A stretch of DNA of 64,000 bases, from the NCBI GenBank assembly GCA_914767715.1, contig OU612071.1, positions 22,937,681 to 23,001,680 of the forward strand, written 5' to 3'. Positions 3,957-43,131 of this stretch are shown here, in pieces. The notes beneath the pieces were generated by a model. The model did no database searches. It worked only from the letters and a program-made list of their open reading frames with translations, and was not told where the DNA came from. Position numbers and translations under genes: made by a program. Every line of letters begins with the position of its first letter. Positions within the stretch are counted from its first letter, which is position 1. Source of the stretch: Membranipora membranacea. Lineage: Eukaryota > Bryozoa > Gymnolaemata > Cheilostomatida > Membraniporidae.

Positions 3957-6900
3957 AATAAAGGGTAAAAATGATCAGAACGAGACTATTTAATTGACAT
4001 AAAATTTGGCCTGCAACTTGTGTTGGTTATGATAATTTACGGTTACTACTAACAATGTCGTCTCATGCTTTCATCATGGTGTTTCACAGATAACTTGGTG
4101 TAATACATTCCATCTTCGACATTATACCCTAAACACTCTCTTAATACAAGGATATATGTGAATAACTTCCTGAGATATAGGTTGAAAAGAAATCCTCCAG
4201 ATTTTGTTTTGTCATGATGGCTTACCGCAAGCGGTAATTTTGGAAATTTCGGCTGTTGCGATAAATATAATCACAAATATAATCAAAACGAAATTTAGTG
4301 GAGGACTGGTCATATTAGCGTACAGAATGGACAGGCAACTTACAACAAGTCCAATCCTCCTTGAGTGTGACTGCCTCGACTACCCGAGTGGTAACCATGT
4401 TCTGCGACACCTCAAATAGGGGGGTTCCTTCCTTCTTTAAATTTATTGATCGTTGGCAGTTTTCATTATCACTTTTAACGACTGTACTCTATAGAAAAAA
4501 AAGTTTAGTATGGAAATTTTCTTCAACATGAACTAGATTGCAGGTTTGGTATTGGAGGTACTTACCAGTGTTATTTTCTCTCATTGGTCTCAAGAGCAAG
4601 TGTCCCTCACCTTGAAGATTGTCCATGGTAGCTGAAACCTTCAATCTTCGGCGCATGGCAAATAATATCAGAATACAAAGGCTCTAGCTCTGATGTACAA
4701 AACTCGCCTGACATCCCAATAGCCTTCAGCAGTCTGTCATTCAGGAGAATGTCCTCTCCATCTTTATGTTATATGGCCCTGTAAAAGAATCACCGCTCGA
4801 CAGTCTGTGAGAGTGATAATGCTTACGCTTACAAGGCATTCCATATCCAGCACAAGAATGAGAAAAAATAACATTGCATAACAAAATGTTCTACTGAATT
4901 ATTAAGGCACCCGGTTTAACCTACGGGAAACAAATATTTGCAGTACTTCTAACCTGTACACATACCGTATATTTTTAGCCTGTCACAGAAAACAGAGAGT
5001 TTTGGCTTAGATTATGTACTCAGTTAGGTCTAAAAATTAGATTATTGGCAAATACAACAAACGGCAACAAAACAGACCCTATTTCCAGGATTTCCCGACT
5101 CGTACTAAGAGACAATAATATTTTTATGGATGCTCGTGAATCGTACAAAAAGTAATTTAACATCTTACCTTCCCATCTGCTTTGTCTAATTCAAGTATGT
5201 CATCACATCCTCATCCAACTAGAAACACAAATAAATCGATGTTCCACCAGTCACAAGATTATTAACTGAACATTGGCAGGAATATTTAGGTTAGTGTATG
5301 TTGTGGTCAAATTTTGCTTTTCTAAAGACAGCTCCCTAATTATTGGCTTCAAATTTATCATAATGATTAATGCCTGATAAAAAAATATTTGTATAGAAGA
5401 AATCATTCACTGTGTGTGAAAATTATCTACCTTACGCTCTCTGATAATAACATCCCCTTCCCCAGACATGATGGGGAACGAACATGTCGGTATGCAAAAA
5501 GTTAACAAGAGGACAATTCCTCTCACTAGTCATTGAGAGAAAAGGGTATAAAAGGGCTTTATATCAGGTTGATGAAATTGTGTAGCAAATAGACAACTGT
5601 TCTTGAAGTGCTATCGGCATAGTGGAGTAGCTTATCGCACATAATTATTTTTTTCGTGTTGAAAAACATATTATAACATTGCCCAAAAATCTCTTTAATG
5701 ATTTGCTGTTTAGGTTAACAAAATCTGGATCTTAGAGTGAAATAATCCGCAAAAGCCTACTCGGCAAGAAAAAGTTGGTGAAAGTAACAATACTTAAATA
5801 TTTTCCTGCCTAATAAAAACATATGAGGTAATTATTTTCACTAAGTATACCAATCAATCGATAAACACTATATCATTTAATAAATTTACAGTGTTAGAAG
5901 TCCAAATATTTTCGAGGTACATGGTGGGTTTAAATCTTAGGAAACGAAATAGTAATGCATTTCACAATTAGGTATATGCACAGCAGTACATTATTACAAT
6001 AAATTATACCTAAGAGGTAGAAAAAATTCTACTTGTTGTGAAGTTTGCATTTCCTATATTCTACTGGAAAGGTAGACACTATGATGGTAAATCTACACAT
6101 TGAGTTAAGTAATGCAATTACATAGAAAACCTTGCAATGATATTTACAACAATACTAGTCTTCTCACTGATCTCTAGGGAAGCTGAGCCACTAGGCAAAA
6201 TCCACATAAATATATCAGCAATAGAGAAATATTGCTGTATTAATGTATTACTGTATTCTCGAAATACCTGTTACAGCTTCACAATTAAATAAATATACAC
6301 TTATATTATATTCTTTCTTCAAGAAAACAAACATTTTTGCCCAAATTAATTGTTTTTAATTGAAACAACACTTTGAGAGTGGATGACATTTCAAACATCA
6401 ATTCTTCCTGTAAATACTGCAGATGCAATCAATTTCACTTTTTCAAGAAAATACTCTTGGTATTCAGCCTTAGCCTTTAACCAAAACACTTTATCTTCTT
6501 TCCACAGAACTTCCAAAATACCATCCTGTGTTTACCAGTGATTCACCATGTTAACTCCAAAATTTGCCTGCAAACAGAGGTACTTTTTTTTCCCATGTTT
6601 TAATTTAAATAAAATAGAATACTACTACTACTACATAGGCTCAATATTACTGCACCACTTTAAGAGCCAAAGTCAAAAGACTCAGAAATGGCACCAAATT
6701 CAACTCTCATATGAAATGCTATTTATTAGTACTGAATTAATACTTTAGTGTTTTCACTTTGCTGCTCTGCCACATAAGCTATAGGCAGACTGGTTCACAC
6801 ATTGTTATACAGATGAGTGGTAAATGCAAGGAGAAACAGGAGACTGTTACTCCTCCGTAAACAAATGTAAAATAAAATAATAATGGACCTCTTGAGCTGT

Positions 6901-33100: not shown

Positions 33101-33337
33101 AATCTCTGACCTGGTTATTGTGGGACAAAGCAAGAGTCAGAGTAAAATCAACTAGAAAGAAACTTTAAGTGAGTAAGCAAGATAAAAATGGTCATGCTTC
33201 ACATGTGCCAGCTATCATAAAAGTGGTTTATATTTTTTCCGGCTCCCTCCATGATTTTCCTTATGGCTGCGTTCCTATCTGTGGGTGACTAATGTCAGAA
33301 TAGGAGTTTAGTCTTGACAGCATTCAAGCATCTCTTC
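30175..33337. repeat. repeat family X, copy 1 (left part, interrupted by the LTR element)
   Basis: Several blocks match other parts of the window in the same orientation. About 30485-30600 matches about 43585-43690 (GAGAGCACCTCGG..TGCAATGAGA). About 31620-31680 matches about 44355-44395 (TTATCTTCTCTGTCCATGAA). About 32630-32890 matches about 57620-57860 (CCTTCAGATCTGGT). About 33140-33337 matches about 43735-43912. No gene is readable across it apart from the exon at 30035-30174. The LTR retroelement is inserted at 33337/33338. Confidence 0.6.
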
Positions 33338-33662
33338 TGTAAGGATGACATCAGATGTGAATAGACAAATTCATATCATCATCATTAATGTCATCATGTT
33401 AAGAATGTGCCAAGATTCATGACTGATTGTGCTGTCATCGAAATTAATTGATTGAATATTCATTTGCTCGCTGTATCCTGATTACATTTTGTTACCATCA
33501 TATGAACTGCTGTATTACTATTGGTTTAGATATTTTATGTCTCATATATATATATAAGTTTTACTATCAAATAAACCAGTTAATAAGTTGCAACGAAGTA
33601 GCGTAGTACTTCTAAATGATCACAAATACCCACCACAACTTGTAAGGACAGCAGACCCTTAC
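33338..33662 (+). repeat. 5' LTR
   Basis: 325 bp starting TGTAAGGATGACATC and ending GCAGACCCTTAC. Contains a TATA-like run (CATATATATATATAAG, about 33543-33558) and a polyadenylation signal AATAAA at 33570-33575, consistent with U3-R-U5 order. It matches the 3' LTR base for base over 325 bp by eye. The final A of the 3' copy is T here. Confidence 0.95.
33544..33558 (+). promoter_or_regulatory. LTR TATA-like promoter element
   Basis: ATATATATATATAAG lies upstream of AATAAA in the LTR. It is the best candidate for directing the genomic transcript. Confidence 0.5.
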
Positions 33663-33665
33663 TTC

Positions 33666-33683
33666 TGGTGTCAGAAGTGGGAT
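33666..33683 (+). other. primer-binding site (tRNA-Leu-like)
   Basis: TGGTGTCAGAAGTGGGAT starts 3 bases after the LTR. Its complement ends in CCA and matches the acceptor stem plus start of the T-arm of a metazoan leucine tRNA (..ATCCCACTTCTGACACCA), so reverse transcription is probably primed by tRNA-Leu. Confidence 0.8.
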
Positions 33684-33695
33684 TTGAAAGTTGAG

Positions 33696-35200
33696 ATGGA
33701 TCCTGGAAATCTCAACGAAAATGACGGTGGCGAGGAGGTCGACCGCAACGAATATGACGGTGGCGAGGAGGTCGACCGCAACGAAAATGACGGTGGCGAG
33801 GAGGTCGACCGCAATGAATATGACGGTGGCGAGGAGGCCGACCGCAACCTCGAGGAGGAGGAAGAGGAGCCAGTAGACGAGGCTCTTCAACAAATGTATG
33901 ATGACATGGAAGTTATCAGGCAGGATATGCAGGCCCAGGAGGAAGCGAGGAAGGAGGAGCTTGTGCAGTTAACACTAACATTTGCTGCTCAACAAAAACA
34001 GCTAATGAAACAGCTCACTGAGCAGATGACAAAGCAAATGGATGAGATGGGAAAACAGATGATGACAAAAATGGCAAATGAAAGATCAAGGACAGCAATG
34101 CAACGGATGGCTACAACACCAGTTATCAATACACCCCTGAGGACACAGCCACAGCTGATCGTTAAACAAACACCAACCCCAGGTAAGAGTTATCCTTCAG
34201 CAAGCAGTAATTCAAATAACTCAGGAAAGAAAGATTGGGTAAAGTTTGGTCTCAAATTTACTGCAAAGTCAGATGAAGATGTAGAATCTTTCCTGACCCA
34301 ATTTGAAACATGCTGCTTGCTGAATGACGTGCCTACGGAGCACCATGTTATGTTACTAGGCTTGTATGTTAAAGATCTTGCAGCTACCTATTTAAGAGAA
34401 GTAGTGAGGGAGAATGCCTCAGGTAGTTACAGTTTAATCAGAAAGCTATTCAGCTCAAAGGTCAGAGCTGGTAAAGGGGGCGAGCAGGCTGCCATGGAAC
34501 TGGCAAACATGCAGCAACAGTCAAATGAAAGCGTGGGAACCTATTTTGAGCGCTTTCGTAAAACTGTTGCTCAAAGTGATTTAGATGAGACATCTCCATT
34601 CATTTTGCTGTATTTCAGAATGGGATTAAAAATGGGCATCAAGGAGGCAGTTATGCCATTGACCAATAAAACTCTAACTGAGTTGTACCAGGCTGCCAGC
34701 GGGGCAGAAACTGGTCTAAAAGCTTCACAGCTGAACGTAAATGCATTTGATAGTTATAACAGAGGATTCAACAGTAACCCTAATCAAAATTACCGGGGAG
34801 GGTATAACGGTAACACTAGTCAAAACAAACAAGGACAAAGGCGCTGCTTTGTTTGCAATGCGCCTGACCACTATGCAAGGGAATGTCCCAAGACATACTA
34901 TCAACAGAGTCAACATAATAATAATAATAGAGGTTATAATCAGTCTAGGGGACGCGCACATGGTAGAGGCAGAGGCAGAGGAGGTCGTGGTGCTCACACT
35001 ATGGCCAATTCTCAGGTCCCTCAGGAGCCTCCAGATCCAGATATTAATCAACCATCTGAAAATACAGACAACATGCATTATGACGAGTTTGACAACTGTT
35101 TATTTGACACATGTGCTATTGATATGATTGATGACACGGACCATAACGACAGTAATGTGACCACTGAAATTTCAAGTGACACGCCACAGGGTGTGTCAAA
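33696..35200 (+). other. Gag region of the polyprotein
   Basis: Acidic repeat N terminus, helical capsid-like part (for example VESFLTQFETCCLLNDVP, typical of retrotransposon Gag), CCHC zinc knuckle at 34845-34886, then an Arg/Gly-rich stretch (about 34950-35000) expected to bind RNA. Confidence 0.85.
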
Positions 35201-38200
35201 GAAAACAAGGACTGGAACAAAAATTTCCAAATCGAGACAAACATCTGGACTGGGTTTTGTCAGCTTAGCTATTTGTATGACCCTCTTAGGTTTTTTCGGT
35301 AATGTGGATACAACAACACCAATGATATGCAAAACTGATCATCCGGTTGCTAAATTCAGACTGCCAAAACTATCAGGTTGTGATCTCAAACGTGGCCACA
35401 TGGACTTGCATGCACCAATAGACCAGGATGTGACTTTGTTCAAACCAAATCTGATTCAATATAAATCCAAGGCACATCACTGTAAAATAATCAGAACTGA
35501 CATCACAACACATGCAGGATTTTTTGGTGAGAATAGAAATAGGACAACTACACACACAAATGAACTTGTGACAATGGAAACTTGCAGAAACATGGTACAA
35601 TTTAAAAGGGCACCTTTTGGTGACATGACTGAAATAGGTGGAATATACCAAACTCAAATTACAACTGATTTTGAGTATCACACAGGATTTAAGTGCTGCA
35701 CTGATTATGAATTTTCATCAAAGAATGCTTTTCTCTATGAATCTGTGGTATTTATCAGACATGGTAAAGATGAGGACATGCAGAGTCCTGTGGGTAGCAC
35801 AGCTCACTGTGACTACCATTCAGGTTTTTGTAATTTGTTTGATGAATCAGGACTGTTGTGGACACAAAATGAAAAAGAAAAATGTCTCTACTTACCGCAT
35901 ATATTCTATCAAGGAAAGCTACAGGACAGGACTTGGCTATCAAATGACGGGGAATTGGCCTTGACTTTTGCAAACCCAAAGCGTATTCAGCAAAACGAGG
36001 ACTGTGGCGGGTTTGTAGACATAACTGACCAGGGTGTTGCAGTTAAAGTTGGTGACCTGACTAAGACAAGGGAGAAACGACAGATAGAGGGGACTGTTTT
36101 AGCGACTGAATTGAATTCTAGACTACAGGCAATTGAAATACATGTTTCACAGAATTTTAACCAGATGTTTCACACGACATTTAGGCTAACTTGTCAAAAT
36201 ATGATGAAGATGGCTGATCTTTTACTTGTATCACTTGATGAACATCCTATTCTGGCTGCGAGACATCTGTTGAATAATTCATACATTTATGCACAGAAAC
36301 TACATGATTTCATAACCATCTATCCTTGTCAGCCAGTAGACCACTATGAGATGATCTCTTCACCAGAACAATGCACGAAAAGAATTCCAATGGCTGTTTC
36401 ATTAGGTGTCACCAACAGGACTATGTGGTTAAACCCTCATAACAACATTCTACATGACACTCCAAGCCTCATTGATTGCGCATTAAATCAGGAGATTCCA
36501 ATGGTAATTGATGGAGAATTATTCTTCTATGCACATGTTGATGGGACTGTCAGGAGGGCCAGTGGCATTGACAAGCTGAATACGATAGCACTTGATTTTT
36601 CTGATTTGGGAAACGATATTGGTCAACCTGTCATACATAAACTACTATTATATGATTGGCATTTATTTAGAGAAAAATTTACATTGAATGACTTGACAGG
36701 TGCCATGCAATATCAACATAAGATACTTGGGAATTTGATAGGCATTACAGACAATACTAATGACGAATATCAGGGTGGGCAATCACAAGTCTTTTCACAT
36801 AATGTGGTCAAAGACGGTTTATTTTCATTCCTTTCTGGATTGGATGTTGTTGATTGGAAGCAGATATGGATTTTCTTTTGCTGTTTACTAGTAACATTCA
36901 GGCTTTGTTGGACATTAGTTAGAATGTGTACTGGCGCAAGACAATTTGTAGGGGATCCTAAGGATAATTTGAATCGTTATTTCTTTGGAAATTATCATGG
37001 AAAAGATAACAAACCGGAGCAGTCTAACATCAATGTCAATGTTACACAGCAAACTAATCCCCAACCTGGACCCTCCCATGAGCAACCAGAAATTACAGAA
37101 CCCAAGCCAACTGTTGTTGTTTTAAATGAAATTTCATCTGCCAGTGGTAGAGTAAGACCTAGGGCAAGACCTAAAACCTTGACAAACACTAGAGTCACAT
37201 TGGCAGCTGTACGGCGGGCGAAAGCCAGGGCAGCTAGGAAAATATCAGTTGGTGAAATGTTATGCAATTTTCAACGGATACGTCATGAATCGATCATTCA
37301 ATTAAATATTGACAACGGCTTGTACCAATGCTTGTTTGACACTGGTGCACAACTATCGACAATCACAATGAAAATGTGCAAAGTCTTAATGATTCAGTGC
37401 AGGATAACAAGTACCATGAGATCCATAAGATCAGTTTCGGGTAGTGTGGTTAAAGGAATTGGGGAGGTGTATTTGATTGTTTCATATCCAGGGTTGAGCC
37501 CAATCAGGGCCAGATTTTTAGTGATTGGGGAATGTGAATATCCTATTATACTTGGTGCTGATAATTTGCGCCACTGTGGGAAGCTTGTGCTAGATTATAG
37601 CACTGGTAAGTTACACCTCACGCCATTCAATGGTGAGGAAAGGAAGTCTGGACAGGTCACTTCTGGTGATGATTTATCAATGGATGCTGTGGAAAACCGT
37701 GAGTACTGCAATGTGTTTGCGGACAGGGATGTTATATTCCCTCCAAAGTCTGATAATAAGATTTGTTTTAAAGGACCGCAGTCTAAAGTACAGCTTATGT
37801 ATGAACCTACCTTTGTACATGGTGGTCTTATGTTTGCCAAAACTATGAATCCAGCTGATGGAATGATCAGATGTAGAGTAATAAATGTGTCCGACAATTA
37901 TATCAAAGTGTATCAAGGCACACCACTCGGCACAGTTACTCAACAGCAATCTGTACAAATAAAGGATAGTAATCTGAATGAAACATTGAATGGCAAAGTC
38001 AAAGAAGACAATAAATCAGAGACTGCGGATCCAATTTCTAGAATTGATTTAGCTAAATCACCGTTGAACACACATGAACGCAAGCGTTTTCTTTCTTTTC
38101 TAGGTACTAAAAAGTCTGTGTTCGCCTTTCACAAGTATGATGTTGGTGAGGTAAAAGGATTGACTGGACGGGTTTGTGATACTGGTGATGCTAGACCTGT

Positions 38201-40967
38201 TAGATCCCAACCTTATAGAGTGCCTGTAGCTTATAAAGATGCTCTGAATAAGGAAATTGACAAAATGCTGAAACATAATATCATTGAAAAGGCACCTAAT
38301 TCCAGTGTTTGGGCATCGCCTTGTTTGCTTGTTAAAAAGGCTGGGACTACTGATTTGAGAATTGTGCAAGATTATAGAAAGGTCAATGCCGTAACACATA
38401 CCCTGTCATTCCCATTACCTCACCCAGATAGTATCAAGGAGATGTTAGCCGGTCAGAGTGGATTGTTTACCACTATTGATCTCATTAAGGCATTTTGGAA
38501 TTTGAAAATGGAAAATCCTGAGGATAGGGAGCGATCGACATTTGTCACTCATAAAGGTACGTATCGTTATTTGAGAGTACCTTTTGGCTTTTGTAATTCC
38601 AGTATTATTTTTCAGAGAGCAATGTCCGTGATTTTATCAAACCTTCAGTGGGTGACCTGTCAATGTTTTCTTGATGACATTGTAATATTTAGTGATAGGA
38701 ATTTAGACAACCACATGCATAGAGTTGGGCAAGTTCTTGATAGGCTGATCAAACATGGCGTAAAGATCAATCCTGCAAAATCAAAATGGGCTAGATCTGA
38801 GGTGCAATATTTGGGAAATGTGTACAATGAATTTGGGTGCAAGCCTGCACCCGGTCTGGTTGACAAAATCAACCGTTATCCAGAACCAACTGATATAACC
38901 CAACTCAAGCGCGCCCTAGGAGCTATGTCCTATTATCGGACATATATTCACAAATTCTCAGATTTGGCAAAACCATTGTTGGAATTGACTAAGAGTGACG
39001 CTACATTTGACTGGACGCGATCTTGTTCTGAAAGTTTCAGAGTTTTGAAAGATAAACTCTCAACATATCCTGTTTTACGCTATCCGATTTTTGATAGACC
39101 TTTTCACATCCACACTGATGCATCGAACTTTGCTATCGGTGCACAGCTATGTCAGATATTTGAGGATGGCTTACATCCAATCGGTTATTACAGTCGTGTA
39201 TTGAACAAAAGTGAGAAAAATTATTCTACTTATGAAAAAGAAGGGTTGGCGGTGGTTGCAGCTTGCAAGCACTTCAGGCATTTTATATTAGGACACGAAA
39301 CCATTGTCACAACTGATCATTCACCTCTGCGTTGGTTGTTAACATGCGACCACAAGAACTCGAGACTGGCCAAGTTTTCATTAAAACTTCAGGAGTATAA
39401 TTTGAGAGTGATTTACAAACCTGGCAAGGAAAATTATGTGGCTGGTGCTCTCTCTAGAATAGAAGTAGCTGATTCATGTGTCATAGGGCTAACTGCTGAG
39501 TGCTTAGCTAGTAGTAAGGATGATTTGCTGCAATTTCGTGAACAGCAAATTACAGATCCATTCCTCAAACAGATTATTGAGTTGCTGACAGACGGTGCAA
39601 ATCCAATCAATCTTTCTCCAGTAGAGCACAGGCATATCTTAGCTCAGAAACGCTATTACGTTAGGCAAGATGGCGTATTATATTATAATCCGCTGGATGC
39701 TCTCAGACCCTTACTATGTGTCCCTGAAATAATGAAATTTGACTTGTTGAATGTGTATCATAATTCATTATTTGGGTGCCATGTGGGGAGAAATCGTTTA
39801 TACAAAAGACTAAGTAGGAAATATTATTGGCTTGGGATGAGTAAGGATGTTGCGGAATATATAGCTGCTTGTATCCAGTGCAATCAGAGGAAAAGGGGCC
39901 CTTTCAACCCTATCTTTCCTCTACAACCATTAGAAACGGAGGACAAACCATTCGCCAGGGTACATTTTGACATACTTGGTCCGTTGCCTTTAACAGAGAG
40001 AGGGAGTAAGTATATTTTAGGATTACAGTGCTCTTTTTCCAAATTTGTAATCATGAGGCCAATTTCTGATCACAAAATGGAGACTGTGGCTGATTGCATG
40101 ATCGAGTATTTGATACTTCCTCATGGATGTCCAAATATATTGGTCTCGGACAATGCGGCTGAATTTGTTTCTGGTCTAATGAACAAACTGGCAGAGACTT
40201 TAAACATCGACAAGCGCACCTGCACTCCCTATATGGCAAGCACTAACGGGCAGGTGGAGCGCTCTTTTCAGAGTTTCTCCAATCTGATGGCTACAATGAT
40301 TGATAAGGCGCAGACTAATTGGGATATGCTTTCCAAATATGTTGCTCATAGCTACAATAACACTGAGAATGCTTCAACAGGCTTTACACCAACGTATCTG
40401 AGTTGCGGAAGGGAAATAACTATTCCCTTCGAGCTGGCTGTACCTGTTGTAGATCGTGTGTGCTATAATGAAAACAAAAACCCCGTTGAGGAAATGCATG
40501 ATTCCTTGAAGGTTGCATGGGCATTGGCAAGGGATAACTTGGAATGTGCGCAAACTAACTATAAATACTACCATGATCTTAATACTAACGGACATCAATA
40601 TAAGGTTGGGGATGTGGTTTACGTCAAGGTTCCCCATGTGGCAGTTGGCAATGTGAAGAAATTTTCTTCTTCATATCAAGGGCCTTATCTGATTGTTATG
40701 TTGAATGGGTTAAATGCTGATGTTAGGGCACTAGGCACAACTGGTTTGCCAGTGGGAACTCAGTTCACTACCCACCTGGTACGTTTGAAGAAAGCTAAGG
40801 CACCTTTGACATCCGACTTTACTCCTGCCAGCTATGTATCTGTAAAGAGGAAACCAGCAACTAATCCTGCTGTGGCCGTTCCGGCTTCTAACTCCGCTAC
40901 ACCAGCTCAGGATGACTCTACTAAGACAAGTTCCCATGGCTATAATCTACGAGCTAGGAATAACTAA
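33696..40967 (+). CDS. Gag-Env-like-Pro-RT-RNaseH-Int polyprotein, 2423 aa
   Basis: The frame is open from 33588, but that ATG lies inside the LTR, before the primer site; ATG 33696 is the likely start. Residues are numbered from it. Gag: acidic 11-residue repeats (7-50), a Gln/Met-rich coiled coil, capsid-like helices, and a CCHC knuckle (CFVCNAPDHYAREC, 384-397) followed by an RG-rich tail. Envelope-like part: hydrophobic segment 519-535, Cys-rich domain with N-x-T sites (615, 860, 907), furin-type REKR at 792-795, transmembrane segment 1057-1075, basic Pro-rich tail. Pol: protease DTGA (1215-1218) with LGAD (1286-1289); RT DLIKAFW and FLDD (1658-1661); RNase H Asp 1808 and 1874; integrase HHCC (2022, 2029, 2059, 2062), catalytic D2092, D2152, E2188 (35 residues between the last two), GPY at 2329-2331. 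No stop, frameshift or lost catalytic residue is visible. Having all products in one frame is uncommon. Confidence 0.93.
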   Translation: MDPGNLNENDGGEEVDRNEYDGGEEVDRNENDGGEEVDRNEYDGGEEADRNLEEEEEEPVDEALQQMYDDMEVIRQDMQAQEEARKEELVQLTLTFAAQQKQLMKQLTEQMTKQMDEMGKQMMTKMANERSRTAMQRMATTPVINTPLRTQPQLIVKQTPTPGKSYPSASSNSNNSGKKDWVKFGLKFTAKSDEDVESFLTQFETCCLLNDVPTEHHVMLLGLYVKDLAATYLREVVRENASGSYSLIRKLFSSKVRAGKGGEQAAMELANMQQQSNESVGTYFERFRKTVAQSDLDETSPFILLYFRMGLKMGIKEAVMPLTNKTLTELYQAASGAETGLKASQLNVNAFDSYNRGFNSNPNQNYRGGYNGNTSQNKQGQRRCFVCNAPDHYARECPKTYYQQSQHNNNNRGYNQSRGRAHGRGRGRGGRGAHTMANSQVPQEPPDPDINQPSENTDNMHYDEFDNCLFDTCAIDMIDDTDHNDSNVTTEISSDTPQGVSKKTRTGTKISKSRQTSGLGFVSLAICMTLLGFFGNVDTTTPMICKTDHPVAKFRLPKLSGCDLKRGHMDLHAPIDQDVTLFKPNLIQYKSKAHHCKIIRTDITTHAGFFGENRNRTTTHTNELVTMETCRNMVQFKRAPFGDMTEIGGIYQTQITTDFEYHTGFKCCTDYEFSSKNAFLYESVVFIRHGKDEDMQSPVGSTAHCDYHSGFCNLFDESGLLWTQNEKEKCLYLPHIFYQGKLQDRTWLSNDGELALTFANPKRIQQNEDCGGFVDITDQGVAVKVGDLTKTREKRQIEGTVLATELNSRLQAIEIHVSQNFNQMFHTTFRLTCQNMMKMADLLLVSLDEHPILAARHLLNNSYIYAQKLHDFITIYPCQPVDHYEMISSPEQCTKRIPMAVSLGVTNRTMWLNPHNNILHDTPSLIDCALNQEIPMVIDGELFFYAHVDGTVRRASGIDKLNTIALDFSDLGNDIGQPVIHKLLLYDWHLFREKFTLNDLTGAMQYQHKILGNLIGITDNTNDEYQGGQSQVFSHNVVKDGLFSFLSGLDVVDWKQIWIFFCCLLVTFRLCWTLVRMCTGARQFVGDPKDNLNRYFFGNYHGKDNKPEQSNINVNVTQQTNPQPGPSHEQPEITEPKPTVVVLNEISSASGRVRPRARPKTLTNTRVTLAAVRRAKARAARKISVGEMLCNFQRIRHESIIQLNIDNGLYQCLFDTGAQLSTITMKMCKVLMIQCRITSTMRSIRSVSGSVVKGIGEVYLIVSYPGLSPIRARFLVIGECEYPIILGADNLRHCGKLVLDYSTGKLHLTPFNGEERKSGQVTSGDDLSMDAVENREYCNVFADRDVIFPPKSDNKICFKGPQSKVQLMYEPTFVHGGLMFAKTMNPADGMIRCRVINVSDNYIKVYQGTPLGTVTQQQSVQIKDSNLNETLNGKVKEDNKSETADPISRIDLAKSPLNTHERKRFLSFLGTKKSVFAFHKYDVGEVKGLTGRVCDTGDARPVRSQPYRVPVAYKDALNKEIDKMLKHNIIEKAPNSSVWASPCLLVKKAGTTDLRIVQDYRKVNAVTHTLSFPLPHPDSIKEMLAGQSGLFTTIDLIKAFWNLKMENPEDRERSTFVTHKGTYRYLRVPFGFCNSSIIFQRAMSVILSNLQWVTCQCFLDDIVIFSDRNLDNHMHRVGQVLDRLIKHGVKINPAKSKWARSEVQYLGNVYNEFGCKPAPGLVDKINRYPEPTDITQLKRALGAMSYYRTYIHKFSDLAKPLLELTKSDATFDWTRSCSESFRVLKDKLSTYPVLRYPIFDRPFHIHTDASNFAIGAQLCQIFEDGLHPIGYYSRVLNKSEKNYSTYEKEGLAVVAACKHFRHFILGHETIVTTDHSPLRWLLTCDHKNSRLAKFSLKLQEYNLRVIYKPGKENYVAGALSRIEVADSCVIGLTAECLASSKDDLLQFREQQITDPFLKQIIELLTDGANPINLSPVEHRHILAQKRYYVRQDGVLYYNPLDALRPLLCVPEIMKFDLLNVYHNSLFGCHVGRNRLYKRLSRKYYWLGMSKDVAEYIAACIQCNQRKRGPFNPIFPLQPLETEDKPFARVHFDILGPLPLTERGSKYILGLQCSFSKFVIMRPISDHKMETVADCMIEYLILPHGCPNILVSDNAAEFVSGLMNKLAETLNIDKRTCTPYMASTNGQVERSFQSFSNLMATMIDKAQTNWDMLSKYVAHSYNNTENASTGFTPTYLSCGREITIPFELAVPVVDRVCYNENKNPVEEMHDSLKVAWALARDNLECAQTNYKYYHDLNTNGHQYKVGDVVYVKVPHVAVGNVKKFSSSYQGPYLIVMLNGLNADVRALGTTGLPVGTQFTTHLVRLKKAKAPLTSDFTPASYVSVKRKPATNPAVAVPASNSATPAQDDSTKTSSHGYNLRARNN
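33714..33845 (+). repeat. four tandem 33-bp units encoding acidic repeats
   Basis: Units start at 33714, 33747, 33780 and 33813, each encoding NEnDGGEEVDR with N/Y alternation at the third residue. The unit length is a multiple of three, so copy-number change keeps the frame. Confidence 0.95.
35250..36962 (+). other. envelope-like glycoprotein region inside the polyprotein
   Basis: A signal- or anchor-like hydrophobic stretch (35250-35300, LGFVSLAICMTLLGFFG) is followed by about 520 residues with many Cys, N-glycosylation sites at 35538, 36273 and 36414, and a furin-type REKR ending at 36080. After that come a long helical segment, a further Cys-bearing domain, and a strong hydrophobic segment (36864-36920, IWIFFCCLLVTFRLCWTLV) with a basic tail. 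This is the architecture of a cleaved viral type I glycoprotein. The fold class and nearest viral family cannot be fixed by eye. Nothing similar appears downstream of pol, where env normally lies. Confidence 0.75.
37290..37640 (+). other. aspartic protease domain of the polyprotein
   Basis: CLFDTGAQLSTI (Asp codon at 37338) is the active-site loop, and IILGADNL (37545-37568) is the second conserved strand. Length fits a retropepsin-like protease acting as a dimer. Confidence 0.88.
38100..39470 (+). other. reverse transcriptase and RNase H domains
   Basis: RT motifs: PYRVPVAYKDALNKEIDKML, ASPCLLVKKAG, FTTIDLIKAFW (Asp 38478), PFGFCNSSIIFQRAM and FLDDIVIF (38667-38690). RNase H follows with FHIHTDASNFAIGAQL (Asp 39117), YEKEGLAVVAA and TTDHSPLRWLL (Asp 39315). 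Confidence 0.95.
39740..40850 (+). other. integrase domain with GPY/F module
   Basis: The zinc-binding HHCC (His codons 39759 and 39780, Cys 39870 and 39879) precedes the catalytic core (Asp 39969, Asp 40149, Glu 40257) and a SYQGPYLIV GPY motif (40680-40688). No chromodomain follows. Confidence 0.93.
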
Positions 40968-42790
40968 TCCCTTCGCACATACACTTATGACAGCTTATGC
41001 AATTATTATTCAATTTATAAATGTATCTAACTTAATAATAACCGCTATAAACTAACTGCTTCATTGCTATGGCATGGGCATATACAATAACATTGGTGAT
41101 GTCTGGCTGAACGATGTGTTATTCAATTGACATCTAATTGTGCAAAAAAAAAAAAAAAAAAAAAAAAATTATTACCCACAATTAATATCCAAAATTATCA
41201 CATGTGCTTATTACAAAAAAAAAAAAATAAATAAAAATAAAGGAAAAGAGAATTGGTATCTAAGACGAAATTGGTCCCACCTGAATATTTTGAGTGCGTT
41301 TTGAGTTGTTGTGCACTCTTTTGGCTGGCCACTTGGATTGAGCAGTCTCTCTTCTGTGGATCTAGAGTCTTGATGCTCTATGGAGGAGTGGTATGGCGTA
41401 TCCTGGACTGGAAAGTTGCTTGGATGGAAACATTGCACACTGTGGACATGGAAAACAGTGCTGCCTGGATTTGGAATCTTCACACTCTATGGACGAGTGG
41501 TATGGCGGGACCTGGACTGGAAGATTGCTTGGATGGAGACATCGCACACTGTGGACATGGAAAACAGTGCTGCCTGGATTTGGAATCTTCACACTCTATG
41601 GACGAGTGGTATGGCGGGACCTGGACTGGAAAATTGCTTGGATGGAGACATCGCACACTGTGGACATGGAAAACAGTGCTGCTAGGATCTGGAATCTTTC
41701 TTCTGACCTCACCGAGTTCAAAGAGATGGTCGTATATAGGATAAAGAAGCCAGAGGAGTTTGGCGCCTCCTACTACTGGTCTGCCGAAGACTTCCATCTC
41801 TGGTGTGTGTCACAGCTCTTGATTGTCAAGATGGGCTGTACCTGTGTGCATTCAGCACCTGGATTTCCGATGGAGTGAAGGATGAATCGGCATGGTAGTG
41901 GAATGTGAAGGACATTGTAATGGATGGTCTGAGTGATGAAACCCTCTAGTATGACTGGATCGGAGAAGAGATGGAGTGGAATAATAACCCTTAAGTTAAG
42001 TTTAAAGATATGACATATTGACATTGAAACTTGAGAGGGGAGGGATACATTCTATTGATAGACAACCATAAAAACAAAAAGAAATTGCATTCCTCATGTA
42101 TTTAGTGGCGTGAATCACCTTCATAATTAAATGATCTATAAAATTTTAATATCTTTATATCGGATACAACCAATGCATAACATAATATTCTTTACATTGA
42201 ACATTTACATGTAGATTAGCTGATTAATATTTTTAATGAATACATTTTATTACTTTCAGAGACAGAATAGTCCTTCGGACTTTCTTGAGTAAAACCATAC
42301 TAGTGCGACTGATCCCTATGATGGTAACCGAAAGTAATCCAGTATACACAGCGGAAGCGTTAAACCCTGAGTTGAAAAGGCAGTACAATTTTAGTGAAGT
42401 ATGGCACAAACAATGAAGTCTACCCAACCTAATAACCTTCATTACACAACTAAGACAAGTCATGTTCTCCTACAGTAAAAGAGGACAACTCCTGATACAT
42501 CAACAGAATGCACCAGAGATGAACACTGAAGGCTGATTAAGAATCAACAACACCACATCAACAAACAGCAGCCTCATCAACAACCAACATACCAAGAAAT
42601 CCCCAACAACACCAAACAACAACAAAGAACAATCTAAGCTGAGAGATAAACCTACAAGAACCAAAACTCCCCCCCCCCCTTACCTGACCACAATAGATCT
42701 TCACCAACTACATCATCGACTACCAACTACTCAACAAATTCCAGAAGCTAACATTACGACAAGATACAACAAACTCTATCGGCTTCGCCT
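40968..42790 (+). other. non-coding 3' region of the retroelement
   Basis: Between the polyprotein stop and the polypurine tract are an A25 run (41144-41168), an A-rich patch at 41215-41240, a 109-bp tandem array (41360-41702) and about 1.1 kb of unique AT-rich sequence, with CAACAACA-rich sequence near 42540-42770. No transmembrane or env-like ORF is present. Confidence 0.7.
41360..41702 (+). repeat. 109-bp tandem repeat, about 3 copies, in the element's 3' region
   Basis: The block TGGASGAGTGGTATGGCG recurs at 41381, 41490 and 41599. Because 109 is not a multiple of three, the same repeat is read in three frames; this alone explains the overlapping ORFs of 100-163 codons on both strands here. 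I do not call them genes. Confidence 0.93.
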
Positions 42791-42801
42791 GAGAGGGGAG
42801 G
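42791..42801 (+). other. polypurine tract
   Basis: GAGAGGGGAGG lies directly before the 3' LTR and would prime plus-strand synthesis. Confidence 0.85.
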
Positions 42802-43127
42802 TGTAAGGATGACATCAGATGTGAATAGACAAATTCATATCATCATCATTAATGTCATCATGTTAAGAATGTGCCAAGATTCATGACTGATTGTGCTGTC
42901 ATCGAAATTAATTGATTGAATATTCATTTGCTCGCTGTATCCTGATTACATTTTGTTACCATCATATGAACTGCTGTATTACTATTGGTTTAGATATTTT
43001 ATGTCTCATATATATATATAAGTTTTACTATCAAATAAACCAGTTAATAAGTTGCAACGAAGTAGCGTAGTACTTCTAAATGATCACAAATACCCACCAC
43101 AACTTGTAAGGACAGCAGACCCTTACA
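42802..43127 (+). repeat. 3' LTR
   Basis: 326 bp, TGTAAGGATG...GACCCTTACA, identical to the 5' LTR over its 325 bp, with the polyadenylation signal AATAAA at 43034-43039. Followed by CTTC, the target duplication. Confidence 0.95.
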
Positions 43128-43131
43128 CTTC

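Follow-up and report, generated by a model that had tools for sequence, protein, structure and literature searches.

A stretch of 64,000 nucleotides from the genome of the bryozoan Membranipora membranacea (GenBank assembly GCA_914767715.1, contig OU612071.1, forward-strand positions 22,937,681 to 23,001,680; in the following, the window) contains a long terminal repeat (LTR) retroelement that encodes an envelope-type glycoprotein inside its polyprotein. We think it likely that this is a recently mobile Ty3/gypsy-type element of a diverse lineage, which carries a viral fusion glycoprotein between nucleocapsid and protease and makes it as part of a co-translated, membrane-threading product. A single frame runs from 33588 to 40967 without an internal stop and encodes 2423 amino acids counted from the ATG at 33696. 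Along this frame, Pfam matches follow each other in the order Retrotrans_gag (E 1.2e-5), CCHC knuckle, PF24664 glycoprotein, aspartyl protease (PR), reverse transcriptase (RT; RVT_1), RNase H, and integrase (IN).

The glycoprotein segment

The segment spans 35250..36962 on the plus strand, corresponding to residues 519–1089 of the polyprotein. A preliminary description had singled it out as a Cys-rich, envelope-like region lying in frame between the CCHC knuckle and the protease, and this placement is borne out by the open frame and the Pfam order. PF24664 (Monjiviricetes_fusion) matches residues 59–411 of the segment (P0002) with an E value of 2.1e-9 and 36.3 bits—over the cut-off of 27—and is the sole Pfam family matching it at E ≤ 1. 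The profile search leads to viral fusion glycoproteins and not to a cellular membrane protein, which had been named as a refuting outcome.

The two hydrophobic segments described earlier are the only ones in the 2423-residue polyprotein to exceed a mean hydrophobicity of 1.6 across 19 residues. They flank the glycoprotein segment as a putative internal signal sequence at residues 519–537 (35250..35306) and a transmembrane segment at residues 1057–1075 (36864..36920). The furin-type REKR motif is likewise found, at residues 792–795 (36069..36080). Basic stretches lie on both supposed cytosolic sides of the segment, and the relatives P0005 and P0008 carry A-x-A signal-peptidase-like sites after the signal segment. 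Both features fit the topology suggested at the outset—Gag and Pol cytosolic, the glycoprotein lumenal—while the topology itself is one that we infer. The Cys-rich character is confirmed by 19 cysteines in 571 residues. Thirteen of these are Cys in every row bearing a letter there in a ten-row glycoprotein alignment, whose rows are 20–46% identical to the window and whose homology spans the whole ectodomain.

PF24664 is matched at E ≤ 0.01 by nine of the ten glycoproteins of this divergent alignment, five of them over the cut-off when scanned singly (P0002, L040, L041, L046, and P0006) and four below it (L039, L044, L045, and P0007). Genome-wide, there are 31 matches, 25 of them over the cut-off, compared with none in any of 14 control genomes. 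One divergent relative, L046, and no other, also matches the ectodomain of herpesvirus glycoprotein B (gB; PF00606, E 2e-8, 34.4 bits), below that family's cut-off of 43. This additional match suggests a class III fusogen, and in our reading the segment is a viral fusion glycoprotein of Monjiviricetes/gB-like and probably class III type. Gypsy-type elements would thus apparently have acquired the glycoprotein of a negative-strand RNA virus. When the protein database was searched again, now with the ten-row alignment as the query, the same five proteins came back. A sequence search of the PDB gave nothing useful, and neither IMG/VR, searched with a single protein, nor phage records gave a match.

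Conservation of the gag-env-pol order

Searching the genome (339,339,785 bases in 18 contigs) with the glycoprotein segment returned at least 83 matches. Listed glycoprotein and PR/RT matches were compared by hand, and those no more than about 1.2 kb apart on one strand were paired; in 14 of 14 such places, PR/RT lies downstream of the glycoprotein.

Beyond close copies, the order recurs in divergent loci, whose Gag, CCHC, and PR matches are often below the Pfam cut-offs. In L039, L040, L041, L042, L043, and L045, the glycoprotein is preceded by Gag and/or CCHC and followed by PR or RT. L039 contains the complete series Gag-CCHC-glycoprotein-PR-RT-RNase H-IN in one open frame, L040 the series up to RT, and L041 up to PR, where its open frame ends. 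In L042, CCHC, glycoprotein, PR, RT, and IN follow each other in broken frames. L043 shows CCHC, glycoprotein, and PR, then a TGA, then RT, RNase H, and IN, its Gag domain not being found by Pfam. In L045, Gag, CCHC, and glycoprotein are followed by stops and then a PR/RT match, in L044 the glycoprotein is followed by a TGA and then PR and RT, and in L046 Gag, CCHC, and glycoprotein are followed by stops. In six loci (L039, L040, L041, L043, L045, and L046), the glycoprotein shares one frame with the part that precedes it. The ectodomain is flanked by hydrophobic segments at either end in L039, L040, L043, L045, and L046; L042 has one in each of two pieces, L044 has the later one only, and L041 was covered up to a point short of its end.

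The glycoproteins of L039–L041 and L043–L046 are only 20–27% identical to that of the window (20–25% in one comparison, 22–27% in another), and that of L042 is 32–35% identical. An order that is kept across families so divergent therefore works well enough to persist. Outside this genome, on other contigs, two relatives (68–69% identical) have matching junctions: P0005 (69%) joins a similar gag tail, glycoprotein, and PR, and in P0009 the end of the glycoprotein runs on into PR and RT. The preliminary description had proposed to look elsewhere for the succession of CCHC, membrane segment, Cys-rich region, membrane segment, and protease. Its concern that other copies might be missing the segment is answered by the divergent families, and by the six places with window-type PR/RT described next.

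Copies and recent mobility

Four copies of the element (the window copy and those on C4, C5, and C8) lie on four chromosomes and are 100% identical over the 571 residues of the glycoprotein. Their frames comprise 2469 codons each from stop to stop and are open across all junctions. Each copy is bounded by a different, perfect 4-bp target-site duplication (TSD)—CTTC, GTTT, TTTA, and GTGA—and 0, 0, 1, and 0 bases distinguish the 5′ from the 3′ LTR. The element therefore moved recently, with the glycoprotein in place. PR/RT of the window type (at least 90% identity) occurs at six places, and the glycoprotein adjoins it in all six.

Deletions were compared in twelve further window-type loci. Nine of these (L013–L018, L020, L022, and L024) have in common a deletion that reaches from the glycoprotein as far as the end of pol and takes out the membrane segment, PR, RT, RNase H, and most of IN. 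The eight of these nine in which mid-gag was covered (all but L024) are also devoid of it, including capsid and CCHC. Despite the deletions, L014, L015, L016, and L018 have frames of 1018–1071 codons. This internally deleted family is a non-autonomous derivative that has multiplied. Besides the ectodomain, it retains a portion of Gag and the last part of integrase. The other three loci (L019, L026, and L029) have the whole glycoprotein and then only about the first 70 bases of pol. Splicing was considered as the origin of the family-B deletions. The ends of the gag deletion carry GT and AG in the window element, but the joint in the deleted copies has extra bases; the family-B glycoprotein–pol joint resembles a short-homology jump.

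In-frame stops and proposed expression

In two divergent families, represented by four loci, the glycoprotein is followed by an in-frame stop; in a third family, the stop comes after the protease. L044 reads CAA-TGA-CAA-TCA between glycoprotein and protease (2882–2884), while L045, L079, and L080, which form one family, read CAA-TGA-CGC after the glycoprotein tail, where the stop follows PSLQ; L045 bears an additional TGA at the membrane segment. In L043, CAA-TGA-CTA stands between protease and RT (4565–4567). An element that carries no glycoprotein, L054, has CAA-TAG-CAA-TCA between Gag and protease (1659–1661). CAA-stop-CAA-YYA and TGA-CTA are known readthrough contexts, and the CAA-TGA and CAA-TAG stops listed here stand in readthrough-like contexts and may be leaky.

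Because the glycoprotein lies upstream of PR/RT, and because the stops fall after the glycoprotein or the protease, the envelope protein (Env) is apparently made as part of Gag(-Pol), comparable to the capsid and envelope of flaviviruses ahead of their replicase. In the mechanism that we propose, genomic RNA would be translated from the ATG at 33696, beginning with Gag in the cytosol. As an internal signal, the first hydrophobic segment would then open the translocon, so that the ectodomain could enter the lumen of the endoplasmic reticulum, where furin might cut at REKR. The second hydrophobic segment would stop the transfer and Pol would be made back in the cytosol; at the membrane, the protease of the element could release Gag, the Env tail, and Pol. 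Being co-translated within the polyprotein, Env would need no spliced RNA and would stand in a fixed ratio with Gag. In those relatives that have a stop behind the glycoprotein or the protease, leaky termination might give Gag-Env as the main and Gag-Env-Pol as the minor product. Env-bearing particles would then bud, the likely use being to take the element from one cell to another. The signal and furin cleavages, the release by the element's protease, fusion, budding, and infectivity are all predictions from sequence features.

Selection and descent

For the glycoproteins of L040 and L046, the ratio of nonsynonymous to synonymous substitution rates (dN/dS) is 0.09 (dS 1.56). Comparing the window with a family-B copy gives 0.39, and the remaining pairs are saturated or nearly so. 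In one pair, L040–L046, the glycoprotein is hence under purifying selection.

Trees were built from elements of this genome only. One of them, from RT to integrase, comprises 13 rows, seven with and six without a glycoprotein; four rows are less than half filled and some branches are long. The glycoprotein bearers fall on one side of a branch with a support of 93/94 and 94% of bootstraps, which is not decisive. As the tree is unrooted, a single gain and a single loss both fit. For five of the six rows lacking a glycoprotein (L084, L087, L085, L086, and L088), the upstream DNA (L054, L075, L076, L078, and L082, respectively) was examined. In total, no glycoprotein match was present in the examined upstream DNA of eight elements (L054, L075–L078, and L081–L083). 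The glycoprotein and pol trees have in common the split of L039/L040 from the window, L043, and L044/L045, as well as the pair L044–L045 (L090 and L091 in the pol tree).

Weighing the alternatives

Several observations weigh against the reading of an Env that is co-translated within Gag-Pol, a reading that is drawn from genome sequence. In L044, the frame is broken between the upstream open reading frame and the glycoprotein, and L046 ends after the glycoprotein, with no RT found using the queries of the window. As the window element bears no in-frame stop between glycoprotein and pol, Gag, Env, and Pol would therefore be made 1:1:1, which is unusual for particle assembly. An RXXR at the position of REKR is seen in the closer relatives only (P0005–P0007 and L042). 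N-glycosylation sequons, which had been put forward as evidence, carry no weight, as they are not enriched (three, compared with a shuffle mean of 3.7). L043 scanned alone gives no Pfam match, although it is clearly related to the window glycoprotein (tblastn E 2.5e-58). The fold prediction that had been suggested for the segment did not help: the AlphaFold (AF2) model of the glycoprotein from five rows is poor, with a mean predicted local distance difference test (pLDDT) score of 35.6 and a predicted template modeling (pTM) score of 0.22. Concerning descent, the row L089 of the 13-row tree is counted as lacking the glycoprotein solely by there being no listed match nearby. In an RT tree of 25 rows and 148 columns, the glycoprotein had to be gained or lost five times, three of these changes being forced by the well-supported branches alone. 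This result predates the relabeling of three of its "lacking" elements, L053, L060, and L066, as deletion derivatives. The sequences that precede L060 and L066 (L079 and L080) give matches to the glycoprotein profile, and L053 begins in a glycoprotein tail resembling that of L042.

Some of these points would suit an element of the same kind, in which splicing or internal initiation keeps Env apart from Gag-Pol and the common frame is merely a tolerated readthrough. Env from a spliced RNA is typical of retroviruses and errantiviruses, the 1:1:1 product is awkward, and the frame of L044 is broken ahead of the glycoprotein. However, the frame is open over all junctions in the four copies, the upstream part is in frame with the glycoprotein in six divergent loci, and the readthrough-like stops sit after the glycoprotein or the protease. 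We therefore regard such a separation as rather unlikely.

In another explanation, the glycoprotein would be no longer fusogenic, and would be kept as a membrane anchor directing Gag-Pol to internal membranes. Fusion itself is only a prediction, the sequons are not enriched, and the non-autonomous family has multiplied with the ectodomain but without the membrane segment. On the contrary, the 13 conserved cysteines, the homology over the whole ectodomain, and the dN/dS of 0.09 in one pair point to a constrained, folded ectodomain, and we consider a mere anchor quite unlikely.

A cellular membrane protein captured by the element would also bring a signal-type segment, an ectodomain, and a membrane segment, which alone would fit. 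It is disfavored by PF24664 over its cut-off and by a Foldseek search with the AF2 model, in which 29 of 36 matches at E ≤ 0.001 are named glycoproteins, most of them from nyami-, chu-, and rhabdo-like viruses; a nyavirus heads the list, orino- and the other -like viruses follow, and herpesvirus gB appears at 4.4e-4. The library held viral proteins only and the query model is poor, so this support is weak; with template modeling scores of about 0.1–0.3, the signal is hence local. A cellular origin nevertheless seems very improbable. Finally, a one-off capture, an assembly error, or a decayed insert without a role, for which the broken or internally deleted state of some copies might speak, is refuted by the copies on four chromosomes with distinct TSDs and by the divergent families in the same order, along with the purifying selection in one pair, and is practically negligible. 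A fusion glycoprotein co-translated between Gag and Pol remains the reading that we prefer.

Relation to known systems

In reverse-transcribing elements, an acquired env normally follows pol and is expressed separately. Order, frame, and the apparent control point differ here from such elements, which would describe a second route for a retrotransposon to become virus-like. It also offers a means of testing how Gag, Env, and Pol are kept in balance and cleaved if Env is placed inside Gag-Pol.

Errantivirus-type gypsy elements such as gypsy and ZAM are alike in combining a Ty3/gypsy-type pol with an acquired env and in a probable cell-to-cell spread. Errantivirus env, however, is baculovirus F-like, located downstream of pol, and made from a spliced RNA; the glycoprotein described here is located between CCHC and PR instead of 3′ of pol and is not baculovirus F-like. 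The flavivirus polyprotein contains capsid, membrane glycoproteins, and replication enzymes in one membrane-threading chain. By analogy, the element would share its order of capsid, glycoprotein, and enzymes and its membrane threading, although flaviviruses are unrelated and do without reverse transcription. Taking this further, one might see an old animal retrovirus lineage with the order gag-env-pol, in which Env is co-translated with Gag in flavivirus-like manner, Pol is made by readthrough or in frame, no spliced env RNA is used, and some members are mobile and perhaps infectious today. We put this forward tentatively, as slightly more doubtful than credible.

The Ty3/gypsy-type assignment follows from paired LTRs, a short TSD in all four copies, a tRNA primer site in the window copy, and Gag with the order PR-RT-RNase H-IN and gypsy-type Pfam domains (protease below its cut-off, DTG present). 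The Gag, protease, and RNase H matches are the ones customary in gypsy elements. No BEL-type domain is among the Pfam matches and the pol is not of BEL/Pao type, unlike in Anakin—mosquito BEL/Pao elements bearing a chuvirus glycoprotein (PMC7642597). Common to both is an LTR retroelement with a Jingchuvirales-type glycoprotein, the Anakin models having used type B glycoprotein templates (PMC7642597). A mostly arthropod survey reports no clear-cut case of Gypsy elements having captured such glycoproteins (PMC10084718). In TelKA of bdelloid rotifers, Env is ORF3, a paramyxovirus class I F protein encoded downstream of pol (PMC5408684); here, in contrast, the glycoprotein lies between Gag and protease. 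Troyka has no env, CG...CG termini, and a 3-bp TSD (PMC12440569), unlike the TG...CA termini and 4-bp TSDs of the present element. A gag-env-pol order was not found reported among the open-access papers that the searches listed, including the accessible parts of PMC8672886 and PMC13269885. Priority is not proven by this, because the search covered mainly open-access literature, with subscription papers and preprints largely outside.

Layout of the element

The window copy is framed by the TSD CTTC at 33334..33337 and 43128..43131; the features within it are on the plus strand. Its 5′ LTR (33338..33663) is 326 nt long and reads TGTAAGG...CCTTAC plus one base; its first 325 nt are identical to the 3′ LTR (42802..43127) at 325 of 325 bases. 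An 18-nt primer-binding site (33666..33683) is complementary to the 3′ end, plus CCA, of tRNA-Leu(CAG), whose gene lies on C11. ARAGORN called a tRNA gene at one of three examined places with that tRNA end, and a 15-base primer-site pattern occurs 49 times in the genome, compared with once for a reversed control. The same primer-site sequence is also found at the edge of the glycoprotein-less element L078 (C5:17402999 and other places); hence, priming by tRNA-Leu is probably no peculiarity of the glycoprotein lineage.

Gag (33696..35249) comprises the Retrotrans_gag domain, the CCHC knuckle at 34845–34886, and a basic linker. Downstream of the glycoprotein follow the protease (37299..37571; Pfam match below its own cut-off) with DTG at 37338–37346, RT (38331..38816) with an FLDD motif, RNase H (39012..39398), and integrase with an H2C2 zinc domain and rve core (39720..40232). 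The untranslated region 3′ of pol contains 109-bp tandem repeats (41357..41698). No second env was seen 3′ of pol, where the longest downstream open reading frames listed, of 163 and 161 amino acids, both overlap these repeats. A purine-rich tract, TGAGAGGGGAGG (42790..42801), precedes the 3′ LTR as a putative plus-strand primer.

Three further observations concern the element and its relatives. Between CCHC and glycoprotein in L041 (3–2957, residues 769–859), there are weak RNase H-like Pfam matches (best E 8.5e-5, below cut-off), and this subfamily perhaps holds an extra captured domain besides the usual pol. On C7, at about 200–205 kb, 973–978 kb, 1.79–1.80 Mb, and 2.08–2.09 Mb, a decayed window-type glycoprotein is found near a second, divergent glycoprotein piece; these repeated stretches may go back to nested insertions that were then multiplied by segmental duplication. 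A 33-bp-spaced repeat is present near the beginning of gag in five overlapping copies (33680–33877), which encode acidic repeats, and their copy number seems to be different in family B.
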